Assembly (NCBI RefSeq): GCF_002156965.1 | Contig: NZ_CP021324.1 | Coordinates: 220,988 to 284,987 of the forward strand | Origin: Candidatus Nitrosomarinus catalina | GTDB taxonomy: Archaea > Thermoproteota > Nitrososphaeria > Nitrososphaerales > Nitrosopumilaceae | Direction: 5' to 3' | Length of the DNA: 64,000 bases | In this document: positions 5,056 to 62,932 of the stretch, piece by piece | How the letters are laid out: the number at the start of each line of letters is the position of its first letter | Numbering within the stretch: the stretch's first letter is position 1 | The notes under the pieces: model-generated | Database searches by the model: none | Told to the model about the DNA's origin: nothing | What the model saw: only the letters and a program-made list of their open reading frames with translations | Made by a program: the position numbers and the translations under genes

Positions 5056-6321
5056 CTAGATCTCTTTCTGATTGCCCATATATCCTTGTAATACTTCAGG
5101 GATCCGAATATGACCATCTTTTGTTTGAAAATTTTCCATTATAGCTACGAGCACTCTAGTTGTAGCAATTAATGTACTATTGAGAGTATGGATGTATTGT
5201 GTATCCTCATTTGTTTTATCTCTAAATCTAATTTTTAATCTCCTTGCTTGATATTCTAAACAATTTGAACATGAAACAATTTCTCTGTATGCATTTTGTC
5301 CTGCCATCCATGCTTCAATATCATAAGTTTTTGCTGAAATGTTGCCTGTATCTCCAGTAGACAATAACATGACTCTATATGGAATTTCTAATTTTTGATA
5401 AAATTCCTCTGCAATTGATAATAATTTTTCATGCTCCTTCCAGGAATCTTCTGGTTTTGAAAAAACAAATTGTTCAATTTTATCAAATTGATGTACTCGG
5501 AAAATTCCTTTTTGATCTCTACCATGTGCTCCTGCTTCTTTTCTAAAACAAGGACTTATTCCTGCATATTTTTTTGGAATGTCTTTGCCTTCGATAATTT
5601 CTTTTGAATGCATTGCTGCCATTGCATGTTCAGAAGTTCCAATCATGTACAAATCTTGATTATCAATTTTGTAAATTACTTCTTCAAAATCGTCTGCAAT
5701 TACTGCTCCTTCCATTGACTCTCGATTAATCATATATGGAGGTTGAACAATAGAATATCCTTTTTCTCTAAGAAAATCTAATCCAAAATTAATTAATGCT
5801 TGATTCAATCTAACTAAATCATTTTTTAAATAATAAAATCTTGCACCCGCTACTTTTGCAGCTCTTTCTAAATCCACTAAGTCTAAACCTTCAGAAATAT
5901 CTATGTGATCCTTTATTTTAAAATCAAATTTTGGAATATTGCCCCATTTCTTTATTTCTTTATTTGACTCTTCATCTTTTCCTACTGGAACTGACTCATG
6001 GATGAGGTTTGGAATTGATGCTGCTAATTTTAAATATTTTTTTTCAATATCATTTTGGTCAACTTCTAATTTACTGAGTTCTTCTGAAATATTTTTCATC
6101 TCTGCTAAAATTGAAGAAATATCTTCCCCTCTCTTCTTTTTTTCTGAAATATTTAATGCAACTTGGTTTTTCTTTTTTCTCAATTCATCAGTTTTAATGA
6201 TAAATTCTCGTCTTTTTTGATCTGAATCAATTAATCCTTCCAGATCAAAATCTACTGATCTTACTTTTAGCATATCTTTGATAACTTGAGATTTTTCTTT
6301 GATTAGTTTGGGATCTAACAT
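5056..6321 (-). CDS. serS: Seryl-tRNA synthetase
   Basis: A 421-residue class II synthetase of the common (bacterial-type) SerRS, not the rare methanogen type. The N-terminal long antiparallel coiled coil spans about residues 30-105. Motif 2 is SPCFRKEAGAHGRD at about 257-270. The serine-site region (EAWMAGQNAYREI) is at about 339, and motif 3 includes TLNSTLIATTR. It charges tRNA-Ser with serine. The ATG overlaps the last base of the upstream Pcc1 gene, showing tight coupling in the operon uS15-RecJ-Pcc1-SerRS-eS1. Confidence 0.96.
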   Translation of the reverse strand: MLDPKLIKEKSQVIKDMLKVRSVDFDLEGLIDSDQKRREFIIKTDELRKKKNQVALNISEKKKRGEDISSILAEMKNISEELSKLEVDQNDIEKKYLKLAASIPNLIHESVPVGKDEESNKEIKKWGNIPKFDFKIKDHIDISEGLDLVDLERAAKVAGARFYYLKNDLVRLNQALINFGLDFLREKGYSIVQPPYMINRESMEGAVIADDFEEVIYKIDNQDLYMIGTSEHAMAAMHSKEIIEGKDIPKKYAGISPCFRKEAGAHGRDQKGIFRVHQFDKIEQFVFSKPEDSWKEHEKLLSIAEEFYQKLEIPYRVMLLSTGDTGNISAKTYDIEAWMAGQNAYREIVSCSNCLEYQARRLKIRFRDKTNEDTQYIHTLNSTLIATTRVLVAIMENFQTKDGHIRIPEVLQGYMGNQKEI

Positions 6322-6563
6322 TATTCAATCACCTTTAATGCAACTTGGATATGTTCTAATACTTCATCTACTGTGCCTACTAATTGTTTCATGTTTTCTT
6401 TACTCTTAAAATTAAAAATTAGTTTACTATCAACATTTTCAACATAAAGACTCAATCCTTTTGGAAAATTTACATTATCTGGCTCTAAGGCCTTTTTGAC
6501 TGCACCAGCCTTTTTTTTTGATATGTTATTCAGAATTACTTGTACTTGACACGTTAACGACAT
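6321..6563 (-). CDS. pcc1: KEOPS complex subunit Pcc1
   Basis: An 80-residue protein with the Pcc1 pattern: an early hydrophobic strand, a helix ending in KALEPDN, a strand pair (LSLYVENVDSKLIFNFKS) and a C-terminal helix (LVGTVDEVLEHIQVAL). Pcc1 is the dimerising subunit of KEOPS, which installs t6A on ANN-decoding tRNAs. The start overlaps the RecJ-like gene by 38 bases and the end overlaps serS by one, so it is read as part of one operon. Small size limits certainty, but length and context fit archaeal Pcc1. Confidence 0.72.
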   Translation of the reverse strand: MSLTCQVQVILNNISKKKAGAVKKALEPDNVNFPKGLSLYVENVDSKLIFNFKSKENMKQLVGTVDEVLEHIQVALKVIE

Positions 6564-50092: not shown

Positions 50093-50851
50093 ATGACATG
50101 GTTATTTGATTCTCACATACATCTGTCTGATTCTGCATATTTGCCTGAAATTGATTTTATTTTAACTCAAATGGATTCGCTCAAAATTAAGGCATGTTGT
50201 GTTTCTATGAATTATGAAAATTCGCTCTCAACATTATCTTTATCAAAAAAAAATGATCTTGTTTTACCTTTTATTGGAATTCATCCTGAATGTTCAAATG
50301 ATAATGATCTTGAAAAAATAAATAATTTAATTGAATTAAATCAAAATTCTATTTCTGGTATAGGTGAGATAGGATTAGATCCTACTTATTGTAAAAATAA
50401 AGATGATACTCAGAGACAAATTCATGTCTTTGAATCTTTACTTTCCTCTGCAGAAAAATTCCATAAACCTGTTTCAATTCATTCCAGAAAAAGTCTTGAT
50501 GATATTTTTGAAATAATGACTTCATATGATACAAAACATGCTTTACTGCATTGGTTTGATGGCAGTAAAAAACAACTTCAAAAAGCCATGGATATGGATT
50601 TTTTTGTATCTTTTGGTCCTGTAATGATTTATGCAAATGATAAACAAAGTTTATTGTCAAAGGCTGATGAATCAAAAATTCTTGTTGAGACTGATGGACC
50701 TGTTAGATTTTCCAGATGTTTTGAAATGAAATCTGGACAGATCAGCTTTATTCCTAGCGTCATTTTTTGCGCCTCAAAAGTTCTTGAAAAAACATTTGAT
50801 GACATGTCATGTCTTTTGGAGCAAAATACAAAACGCTATCTTGGAATATAG
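50093..50851 (+). CDS. TatD-family metal-dependent hydrolase
   Basis: A 252-residue TIM-barrel hydrolase: metal-binding DSHIHL at the start, GIGEIGLDP in the middle, HSRKS and LHWFDGS later, ILVETDGP near the C-terminus. TatD proteins are 3'-5' DNA/RNA exonucleases or deacylase-like enzymes. It is 31 bases before eS17, in the same direction. Confidence 0.92.
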   Translation: MTWLFDSHIHLSDSAYLPEIDFILTQMDSLKIKACCVSMNYENSLSTLSLSKKNDLVLPFIGIHPECSNDNDLEKINNLIELNQNSISGIGEIGLDPTYCKNKDDTQRQIHVFESLLSSAEKFHKPVSIHSRKSLDDIFEIMTSYDTKHALLHWFDGSKKQLQKAMDMDFFVSFGPVMIYANDKQSLLSKADESKILVETDGPVRFSRCFEMKSGQISFIPSVIFCASKVLEKTFDDMSCLLEQNTKRYLGI

Positions 50852-50881: not shown

Positions 50882-51232
50882 GTGGATAGAATAAAGCGTC
50901 TTTCATTTGAAGTATTAACGGACCATAAGACAAAATTTGGTGAAGATTTTACTGAAAACAAAAAAGCACTAAATCAAGTTTCTATTATCCGCTCAAAAGG
51001 ATTGAAAAATAAAGTTGCAGGATACATTACACGATTTAATAAAAAACAAATTCTCAACGAACAATACAAACAAGATAATGTTGATTCTTCAAATGATGAG
51101 GAACAAGATTCTTCATTAGAGATTGTAGACTCTGAAGATATTTCTGAAACAGTTGAAGAAATTACTCTTACAAACGAGGAAGTTGAAACAATTACTTCTA
51201 CCGCAGAATCTGTAGAAGAGAAATCTGAGTAA
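50882..51232 (+). CDS. rps17e: 30S ribosomal protein S17e (eS17) with acidic C-terminal extension
   Basis: A 116-residue protein starting with GTG 50882 (MDRIKRLSFEVL). Residues 1-58 are a complete eS17 (FTENKKALNQVSIIRSKGLKNKVAGYITR). Residues about 65-116 are an acidic Ser/Glu/Thr tail absent from most homologues. The tail parallels the acidic extension on uS11. Confidence 0.92.
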   Translation: MDRIKRLSFEVLTDHKTKFGEDFTENKKALNQVSIIRSKGLKNKVAGYITRFNKKQILNEQYKQDNVDSSNDEEQDSSLEIVDSEDISETVEEITLTNEEVETITSTAESVEEKSE

Positions 51233-51274: not shown

Positions 51275-52048
51275 ATGATTGCTGTAAAATTAGTCGGTGG
51301 TGCAAAAAAATCATTTAATTCTGAACAATTTCAAATTGAAAAATCCGATATATCTGTTAATGAATTACTTGAGCATTTGTTAAAAATTAAACCTAATGAT
51401 ACTTCTGAGCTTGATATTGAAAATATTCTAATTGCAATTAATGGTTCTGATTCTTCAGCCATGAATGGAAAAGATACTATCATCTCTGATGGTGATGTTG
51501 TAAGTATAATTCCTGTCATTCATGGTGGTTCCTCAAAAAAATTAACTTTTGAAATTGAAAAAAAGCAAATTCACATTATTGAAATTTGTGGCCAAAAAAA
51601 AATTGATATTCAATTTCTTGATGATTTAAGAGAAAAATATCCTAAATTAAAATTTCAAGTTATCTCAAGTAATTTTGTTTTAAATGCTTCTCATTTAAAG
51701 AAAATCTTATCGATTTCAATGAATGCAGAAAAAAACAACATTTTACTATCAAACAAGCTTGAAACTGATATTTTAATGAGATTTGCATCGACGTTACAAA
51801 TTTCTAATGCAATTTCTTCTGTTGGTTTGAAACCTTCAGTTAATTTTATTTTAATTGTAATTGGAAATAAAAATCACTTTAATTCTGTATATTCTGAATT
51901 GTCTCCATTATGTGTAAATTTATTTTTGAAAAATCATTCTTCGTTTATTAAAAAGCATTTCAATATTTCAAAAAAACATACTGATTCTGTATATTCTAAA
52001 ACTCCTCTAGAAGATATTTTGGTCGAAAAAGCTTCTATTTTACTCTGA
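51275..52048 (+). CDS. MoaD/ThiS-like ubiquitin-fold domain fused to KEOPS Cgi121
   Basis: A 257-residue fusion. Residues 1-90 are a beta-grasp MoaD/ThiS-type domain (MIAVKLVGGAKKSF start; GDVVSIIPVIHGG end). Its GG at about residues 86-87 is where free ubiquitin-like proteins end. Residues about 95-257 match Cgi121 of KEOPS: LETDILMRFASTLQISNAIS and VGLKPSVNFILIVIG. Cgi121 helps tRNA bind the t6A-forming complex. The next genes (convergent) encode a TAN1-like and a Sua5 protein, also tRNA modification. Both domain calls are by pattern. Confidence 0.75.
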   Translation: MIAVKLVGGAKKSFNSEQFQIEKSDISVNELLEHLLKIKPNDTSELDIENILIAINGSDSSAMNGKDTIISDGDVVSIIPVIHGGSSKKLTFEIEKKQIHIIEICGQKKIDIQFLDDLREKYPKLKFQVISSNFVLNASHLKKILSISMNAEKNNILLSNKLETDILMRFASTLQISNAISSVGLKPSVNFILIVIGNKNHFNSVYSELSPLCVNLFLKNHSSFIKKHFNISKKHTDSVYSKTPLEDILVEKASILL

Positions 52049-52564
52049 CATACTTCGTTTAGTTTTTTCTAGACTAAGTATATCTGATTTTTTAATGAGT
52101 GAAATCCCTGTCACGATTCCTAGTATCTCAATTAAAATAATTTTATCTGGATAATCTAATGATACTTTGTTTTTTATTTGATTTGCAATATTTGTAATTA
52201 TTTCTTTACTTGAAATATCTGAATTTCTTTTCTCAATTAATATTCTATATGATTCATCATCCTCAATTTTGTTTGAAATGCTAGAAATACATTCTTGAAT
52301 TTTTTCAAGATTTGTTTCGACGATTTTTTGAATTGGAATTACTCTTAAGCAGTATCTGATGCTCCAAGGCTCATCCAACAAGATCTCCTTCATTTTTCTA
52401 ACTACTTCTATGGGATCCAATTTTGTTTGAATAGTAATAATTCCAGACATATTGCTAACAGAAATTTTAATGTCAGGATCCCCCAACTCGTCTAAAATAT
52501 CTATTATTTCTTCCTCTGCTTCTCCTTCTAAATTTCTTGCACAGGTAACAATCAGATTCATCAA
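52040..52564 (-). CDS. THUMP-domain protein, TAN1-like
   Basis: A 174-residue protein with a THUMP domain: N-terminal LIVTCARNLEGEAEEEIIDIL (TAN1-type opening) and C-terminal KIILIEILGIVTGISLI. In eukaryotes TAN1 assists tRNA cytidine acetylation (ac4C). Four-base overlap with the Sua5 gene upstream; end overlaps the Cgi121 fusion convergently by nine bases. Confidence 0.82.
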   Translation of the reverse strand: MMNLIVTCARNLEGEAEEEIIDILDELGDPDIKISVSNMSGIITIQTKLDPIEVVRKMKEILLDEPWSIRYCLRVIPIQKIVETNLEKIQECISSISNKIEDDESYRILIEKRNSDISSKEIITNIANQIKNKVSLDYPDKIILIEILGIVTGISLIKKSDILSLEKTKRSMSE

Positions 52565-53166
52565 ATCACAATATCCTCTTTTTTTAGTGCGCCTTCTCTG
52601 ATGATGTGAATTTTTTCATTTTCTATTTCAATAATTGTTGATTCGCCTTTACTTGTAATTGTTCCTCCATCAACAAAAACATCATAGTTTTTGACATTTT
52701 TCATGCATTCTTGAGGATTTGTAAATGACGACTCCCCCGAAATATTTGCACTTGTACCGACTAGTAAATTACATTTGTTTAATAATTTTAAAGTGCATTC
52801 TGAATTTGGAATTCTCACTGCAATTTTATCTTCTAAATTCAATGATTTTTTTAAATTTTTATCTTTTAATTTTAAAATTAATGTAAGTGGTCCTGGCCAA
52901 TATTTTTTAATAATTTTTTCAGTAAATTTGTCTATTATGCTAATTTGTTTTACTATCTGTATTGAACTTGCTAATACTGGTAGTGATTTTATTTTTTCCC
53001 TTGATTTAATTTCATAAATTTTTTTTACTGCATTTGTATCGTATGGATTGCAACCAATTCCATATACAGTATCTGTTGGAAATATTATGACTCCTCCATT
53101 TTCAATAATTTCTACTGCTTTTTTAATTCCCTTATCCTGACAATTTACTTTCATTATAACTAACAT
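52561..53166 (-). CDS. Threonylcarbamoyl-AMP synthase (Sua5/YrdC family)
   Basis: A 201-residue YrdC-domain protein: FPTDTVYGIGCNP (around residue 31), KSREKIKSLPVLAS, GPLTLILKLK and VGTSANISGESS. It makes the threonylcarbamoyl-AMP donor for t6A, which KEOPS then transfers. The short form lacks the C-terminal Sua5 domain. ATG 53154 is an alternative start. Clustered with TAN1-like and Cgi121-fusion genes. Confidence 0.92.
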   Translation of the reverse strand: MLVIMKVNCQDKGIKKAVEIIENGGVIIFPTDTVYGIGCNPYDTNAVKKIYEIKSREKIKSLPVLASSIQIVKQISIIDKFTEKIIKKYWPGPLTLILKLKDKNLKKSLNLEDKIAVRIPNSECTLKLLNKCNLLVGTSANISGESSFTNPQECMKNVKNYDVFVDGGTITSKGESTIIEIENEKIHIIREGALKKEDIVI

Positions 53167-62146: not shown

Positions 62147-62932
62147 TTGACTGATACTATTAGTAGAAAATTAGAATCTAAAATTGATGATAAATTAATT
62201 TCAAAATCTAAACGAAGAGAACTAGATGATGGATTTAAGAAAGGTAAAGTTGTCAATGAAGTTTTAGATAAACCTACAGTTATGACATTATACAAAATGA
62301 TAACAGATCATGTAATTGCATATGTTAATGGTTCTGTAAGTGCTGGAAAAGAATCTGTTGTTTTTTGGGGTGTTGCTGATGATGATACTAGTGTTGCATT
62401 GAAAATTTATTTGGTTAGTACTTCTAATTTTAAAAAACGTGAACCATATCTTACGGGAGATCCTAGATTCCGTCATGTCAAAAAGGGGACCAAAAATTTA
62501 GTTTACTTATGGGCAAAAAAAGAATACCGTAATCTTACCCAATGCTATGAGGCTGGAATTCCTGTACCTAGACCTCTTTATGTTACAAATAATGTACTAG
62601 CTATGGATTTTGTGGGTAATGATGGTGCACCTTGTAGGGCTTTGCTAACCTCAAATGTAGAACAAAATGATTATGAACAAGCAATTTCTTTAATTAAAGA
62701 TCTATACCATAAAGCAAAATTAGTACATGGTGATTTTTCAGAATATAATATTTTTAAAACTGATGATGGATTAGTTGTATTTGATTTGGGTTCTGCTGTT
62801 GATCTTAGACATCCAAATTCTAAGGAGTTTCTTAAAAGAGACATTAATAACATTACACGATTCTTTAAGAAAAGAGGAATGACTATTGAAGATCCTGTTG
62901 ACATATTTGAGGATATTGTAAATGAGCTTTGA
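62147..62932 (+). CDS. rio1: RIO1-type serine protein kinase
   Basis: A 261-residue atypical kinase starting with TTG 62147. Its ATP-loop region is VNGSVSAGKESVVFWG, catalytic LVHGDFSEYNIF and metal-binding VVFDLGSAVDL. RIO1 acts in late small-subunit ribosome assembly. Overlaps the KH gene by 11 bases. Confidence 0.94.
   Translation: MTDTISRKLESKIDDKLISKSKRRELDDGFKKGKVVNEVLDKPTVMTLYKMITDHVIAYVNGSVSAGKESVVFWGVADDDTSVALKIYLVSTSNFKKREPYLTGDPRFRHVKKGTKNLVYLWAKKEYRNLTQCYEAGIPVPRPLYVTNNVLAMDFVGNDGAPCRALLTSNVEQNDYEQAISLIKDLYHKAKLVHGDFSEYNIFKTDDGLVVFDLGSAVDLRHPNSKEFLKRDINNITRFFKKRGMTIEDPVDIFEDIVNEL

Follow-up and report, generated by a model that had tools for sequence, protein, structure and literature searches.

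Candidatus Nitrosomarinus catalina carries, within the window (the whole stretch of 64,000 nucleotides analyzed here), a gene that joins a Urm1/SAMP2-like ubiquitin-like (Ubl) domain to a complete domain of the KEOPS subunit Cgi121. Comparison of sequences and analogy with fusions of similar build suggest that the product is probably a precursor, cut after an internal His-Gly-Gly (HGG) to give a Urm1-like sulfur carrier or modifier and a Cgi121 subunit. The preliminary description of this DNA had left the choice between a lasting tether and a cut after the diglycine; the evidence favors the cut, although what happens in cells is something that we infer. Cutting is favored over tethering because HGG is invariant and the two genes are separate neighbors in sister lineages, and also because the genome retains an E1, JAMM proteases, and a tRNA thiolase even though it has no free Ubl.

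A Urm1/SAMP2-like domain fused to Cgi121

The gene starts with ATG and is open throughout (Table 1). Pfam recognized ThiS (PF02597) at residues 8 to 85 (45.1 bits; cut-off, 22.5), with a match of the same domain to Urm1 (PF09138; 22.9 bits; cut-off, 21.8), and CGI-121 (PF08617) at residues 116 to 233 (26.2 bits; cut-off, 25); the NCBIfam model for the KEOPS complex subunit Cgi121 (NF011465) matched with an E value of 3e-42 and 144 bits (cut-off, 40). Yeast Urm1 was the top match of the N-terminal part in a sequence search of the PDB, and a profile search connected the C-terminal part to MjCgi121 (2k8y/3enh/7kjt, 4e-15) and to human and yeast Cgi121. The AlphaFold model (58 sequences in the alignment, mean pLDDT of 91.6) is confident in both domains and least so in the block from residue 81 to 90 (pLDDT of 66). 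Foldseek matched the Cgi121 side of this model to 4ww7_B (3e-9) and 8up5_C (8e-9), with tRNA-bound KEOPS among the matches, and the Ubl side to structures of Urm1, SAMP1, and MoaD (approximately 1e-4). Pfam, NCBIfam, the PDB profile, and AlphaFold with Foldseek are thus concordant with the proposal, made in the preliminary description, of a Ubl domain continuing into a Cgi121-like one, and fold search places the C-terminal part inside the Cgi121 fold. The original MoaD/ThiS label holds as far as the beta-grasp domain is of the ThiS family, but the domain resembles Urm1/SAMP2 more than MoaD or ThiS proper. Since it scores under each curated cut-off of the NCBIfam models SAMP1, Urm1_like, moaD_arch, and thiS, we call it Urm1/SAMP2-like rather than file it as a member of any of these. 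Chance or an assembly error is excluded, since the same fusion occurs in 77 open reading frames from many independent genomes.

The residues of MjCgi121 that contact the CCA of tRNA are K56, M60, Q71, I72, and G80 (PMC7718258). In an alignment mapped by hand, Q71, I72, and G80 are kept as Q175, I176, and G184 in the fusion, whereas K56 and M60 are replaced by N160 and T164, so that two of the five contacts differ. With three residues kept and two changed, this Cgi121 domain likely binds tRNA, with details that may differ from those in MjCgi121.

Table 1. Features of the Ubl-Cgi121 locus (positions in the window)
Feature	Position	Strand	Evidence or remark
TatD-family gene, upstream of eS17	50093..50851	+	PF01026, 1e-47
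Ribosomal protein eS17	50882..51232	+	PF00833, 1e-14; ~40 bp upstream of fusion
Ubl-Cgi121 fusion gene	51275..52048	+	257 aa; Pfam, NCBIfam, PDB profile, AlphaFold, Foldseek
Urm1/SAMP2-like beta-grasp (ThiS family) domain, residues 1-85	51275..51529	+	Pfam, Foldseek
HGG junction, residues 83-85	51521..51529	+	Predicted cleavage after Gly85, before Ser86
Linker, residues 86-94	51530..51556	+	Most variable stretch
Cgi121 domain, residues 89-257	51539..52045	+	R169, Q175, I176, G184 conserved
THUMP-domain (TAN1-like) gene, convergent	52040..52564	-	PF02926, 5e-7
Sua5/TsaC, L-threonylcarbamoyladenylate synthase	52561..53166	-	TIGR00057, 2e-52, above cut-off

The genes for Sua5 and the TAN1-like protein had been noticed earlier as signs of a tRNA modification locus; both are indeed found directly downstream on the opposite strand, and the THUMP gene overlaps the 3' end of the fusion gene by 9 bp. 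Sua5/TsaC catalyzes the first step of t6A formation, the synthesis of the threonylcarbamoyl-adenylate used by KEOPS, and since KEOPS consumes this product, the gene surroundings fit t6A synthesis. The order is conserved, TatD, eS17, and ubl-cgi121 (fused or not) facing THUMP and Sua5. Of the 77 fused loci, 75 have eS17 upstream and practically all have THUMP downstream, and most split loci are set in the same frame. The eS17 gene itself has a GTG start and codes for a long acidic tail rich in Ser, Thr, and Glu past the ribosomal domain, the NCBIfam match spanning only residues 3 to 56 of 116.

Fused and split forms among relatives

The fusion itself was already known. Makarova and Koonin reported it in 2010 in all Thaumarchaea then sequenced, beside ribosomal protein S17, proposed a link between the Ubl and t6A, and discussed regulation or a joint function (PMC2948915). 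As described there, it is the same protein family with the same eS17 neighbor. In the open literature (subscription journals being outside the scope), the 2010 paper is the only work on the Ubl-Cgi121 fusion that we found, and the fusion has been without an explanation since. The split form as neighboring genes, the invariance of HGG, and a cleavage model are not reported in the portion of the 2010 text at hand (PMC2948915); what is added here is comparative evidence favoring a cleavable precursor.

We searched 398 genomes of the phylum, with a search for Cgi121 in 201 genomes of the order, and then read the loci. A survey of this kind had been suggested for the fusion in the preliminary description, and the fusion proved widespread in the order, though not present throughout. 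It is present in essentially all genera of the family to which this genome belongs (f1, with Nitrosopumilus and Nitrosopelagicus among the named relatives) and in one genus (g19) of another family, f3. In most of f3 and in other families (f2, f4, f67 to f71, f73 to f76, f12, and f33), the two parts are mostly encoded by distinct neighboring genes, ubl preceding cgi121 as in the fusion, often with an overlap or without a gap, so that the fusion can no longer be said to occur in all Thaumarchaea, as the 2010 paper had it. The ubl gene lies upstream of a separate cgi121 in 53 of the 64 split loci. A different arrangement is seen in genus g15 of f3, in which cgi121 is at the THUMP-Sua5 side and ubl lies at another site of the genome, still beside eS17 and TatD. 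The two-gene operon appears to be the older state, and the pair in unfused lineages widens the connection between Ubl and KEOPS well past the fused family. Separate Cgi121 proteins vary in length, being unusually long in f2 (229 to 263 aa; L078, L082, L083, L085, L177, and L178) and short in f4 (141 to 153 aa; L157 to L160).

A tree of 80 loci, built on concatenated Ubl and Cgi121 sequences by a quick search and with some long branches, requires at least six changes between fused and split forms, four of them forced by well-supported branches; given the quick tree and the long branches, exact counts are soft, and we would say that the two forms have interchanged at least four to six times. A single origin of the fusion is not supported, a tree with the fusions and the whole of f1 as one clade being rejected (AU test, p = 0.001, with the same caution over a quick tree and long branches). 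Within the fused family, the split form recurs in two genomes. One of them (G061) has a single in-frame stop right after HGGA, followed by an intact Cgi121 frame; the other (G374) is split by a frameshift in an assembly of 90 contigs (locus L074) and may be an assembly error.

Conservation of the HGG junction

The diglycine seen at the close of the beta-grasp domain (HGGSS), running straight into the Cgi121 part, is found as HGG at residues 83 to 85. It is identical in all 77 fused proteins. After those at least 85% identical were dropped, 57 proteins covering two families were left, and in these only nine columns of the Ubl domain are invariant, H83, G84, and G85 among them. All four Gly codons are in use at both G84 and G85, so that the conservation of HGG reflects selection on the protein. 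Immediately beside it lies the least conserved stretch, with a mean entropy of 2.5 bits for residues 86 to 95 compared to 1.4 for the Ubl domain and 1.7 for the Cgi121 domain. The residue after the diglycine is Ser in 28, Ala in 17, and Thr in 4 (together 49 of the 57). In split relatives the diglycine is at or near the C terminus and not internal, the Ubl reading frame ending exactly at GG in 50 of 65 cases and no more than two residues past it in 61 of 65. Two of the f3 fusions (L130 and L133) read HGG-Met, the Met apparently being a remnant of the former start codon of Cgi121.

The diglycine matters in proteins of this type because the E1 adenylates the terminal carboxyl of the tail, and an internal diglycine is unusable. 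This bears directly on the possibility that the chain is never cut and that the Ubl serves KEOPS as an integral arm or regulator, bringing the E1, the thiolase, JAMM, or the proteasome near the tRNA held by Cgi121. Such a tether would agree with the fact that almost every member of a large family retains the fusion, with a model of two ordered domains joined by a short linker, and with the general knowledge that KEOPS and thiolation target the same tRNA anticodon loops. However, no E1 could adenylate the internal diglycine, yet HGG is invariant while the linker varies; Ubl domains of other proteins that do not conjugate usually lose the diglycine, which is kept here; and related genomes hold both parts as separate chains. 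We regard a permanent tether as unlikely.

A neutral join, in which an operon lost a stop codon by accident, the protein works uncut, and HGG is held by structural constraint, fares considerably worse and seems to us very improbable. Repeated fusion and fission on the tree do indicate that the join is tolerated, but structural constraint alone is not expected to fix both tail glycines, HGG stands out among so few invariant columns beside such a variable stretch, and presence across the genera of the family argues against an accident merely tolerated.

Partner genes and the fate of the two products

The genome (1.36 Mb, one contig) was searched for partners of either product. There is no second Cgi121 in it, a finding that would have refuted the reading of the preliminary description, so that the fusion is the only copy; the KEOPS partners are one Kae1, one Bud32, and two Pcc1-like genes. 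No stand-alone Ubl was found in the genome, the only ThiS-type domains being that of the fusion and the N-terminal domain of the one clear E1, which has an internal AGG-Ser. Likewise, nearly all ThiS domains in 61 genomes of the family are in Ubl-Cgi121 or Ubl-E1 fusions. Two JAMM proteins, both matching PF14464 above the cut-off and with the metal-binding motif intact (HSHP...S..D), are encoded away from the fusion locus, and there is one tRNA thiolation enzyme of the NcsA/TtuA type (TIGR00269, above the cut-off). Unless one of these chains is cut, the E1 and the thiolase would be left without a usable Ubl tail, a further point against a permanent tether. A role of the Ubl in molybdenum cofactor synthesis was rejected for this genome, in which MoaE was not found.

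We therefore return to the cleavable precursor. One chain would be translated and then cut after the internal HGG, and the enzyme making this cut would most likely be one of the two JAMM/desampylase-type metalloproteases. From the N-terminal part would come a Urm1/SAMP2-like protein with a free diglycine tail that the single E1 could activate, most likely to give its sulfur to the NcsA/TtuA-type enzyme for 2-thiouridine in tRNA, and possibly to modify proteins too; the C-terminal product would be an ordinary Cgi121 joining Kae1, Bud32, and Pcc1 for t6A37. The fusion, which probably arose when the older two-gene operon lost the stop codon that followed GG, would hold both products at 1:1. We are evenly divided over a fuller version, a self-balancing polyprotein in which a JAMM cut after HGG yields equal amounts of the 2-thiolation carrier and of Cgi121 as the subunit that binds tRNA for t6A, coupling two modifications of the anticodon loop through a single proteolytic event, and in which such fusions arose more than once. 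Some points count against the precursor reading: GG is mostly followed by Ser or Ala, but this position is not fixed; both JAMM genes lie apart from the fusion locus; two of the five tRNA contacts of MjCgi121 are changed; GG could be kept for recognition without a cut; and the Ubl fused to the E1 could be set free in its turn and supply the thiolase, in which case the fusion would not be strictly the sole donor. Release of Cgi121 from the uncut chain by an internal restart of translation was also considered. The gene in the window has no in-frame ATG, GTG, or TTG from 6 codons before GG to 20 after it, and since in-frame starts near GG occur in only 29 of 57 fusions and at no conserved position, this is not a general route. 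A cut after HGG is a direct prediction of the precursor reading, testable in existing proteomics of ammonia-oxidizing archaea in culture.

Cleavage might also be conditional, the uncut chain being inactive or regulated and JAMM turning on both tRNA modifications under certain conditions. Some full-length MoaX always remains, and its processing may be slow or regulated (PMC4326299); SAMP1 linkage and JAMM are reported to regulate an archaeal enzyme reversibly (PMC4443979). Nevertheless, the sequence holds no sign of regulation and the split relatives lack such a switch, so that we consider this version improbable.

Precursors of similar build

Direct parallels are MoaX of Mycobacterium tuberculosis and MoaD-MoaE of Deinococcus radiodurans, which likewise consist of an N-terminal beta-grasp carrier, an internal Gly-Gly, and then the partner. 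MoaX works only after a cut between Gly82 and Ser83, for which Gly81 is required (PMC4326299), and the MoaD-MoaE fusion is cut by the Deinococcus JAMM (PMC8832034). Both are cut after GG, whereas the fusion described here is known from sequence; it shares with them the internal GG followed by a small residue, and its genome has a JAMM with an intact motif. The partners differ: MoaE uses the sulfur of the carrier to make molybdopterin, while here the partner is a KEOPS subunit, which is not known to accept sulfur. Precursors of Ub/SAMP are also processed in archaea by Rpn11 and JAMM, as in Caldiarchaeum by CsRpn11 and CsJAMM (a cut after GG being shown for Ub), although short C-terminal tails are removed there, in contrast to the second working protein of Ubl-Cgi121 (PMC6043591).

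The thiolation systems Urm1/Uba4/Ncs6 and SAMP2/UbaA/NcsA offer a comparison for the N-terminal product: the Ubl of the fusion ends in HGG like Urm1, and the counterpart E1 and NcsA/TtuA-like thiolase are present here, one of each. In those systems the Ubl is stand-alone and not fused to Cgi121. Eukaryotic fusions of ubiquitin to ribosomal proteins, in which a modifier with a diglycine tail precedes an unrelated protein connected with translation until a protease sets it free, have a similar layout with another Ubl family, another partner, and another class of protease.

Other Ubl- and KEOPS-related genes

The weaker of the two Pcc1 matches of the genome is an 80-aa gene of the window (6321 to 6563, minus strand), located between a seryl-tRNA-synthetase-like and a DHH-phosphatase-like gene. 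Its product may be a Pcc2 paralog, which would make it a second KEOPS gene in the window. A kinase-like frame of about 262 aa (approximately 62513 to 62800, plus strand) matched the Bud32 model well under the cut-off and is possibly a RIO-type kinase.

The E1 gene of this genome (L119, 1413 to 2735, plus strand) directly follows a gene for a PLP-dependent synthase (191 to 1411). One 3.2-Mb genome of genus g11 (G549) is unlike the rest of the family in having ThiS-type domains in frames of 419 and 814 aa (C1:1706500 and C1:898634). Two relatives have a cluster of a cysteine-synthase-like gene, a JAMM, and a Ubl gene (L106, 993 to 3069; L107, 566 to 3336) that resembles the mycobacterial CysM-Mec-CysO cysteine pathway. 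The Ubl member of this cluster is a Ubl or a Ubl-E1-rhodanese fusion, and the Ubl at L106 extends approximately 15 residues past its GG.
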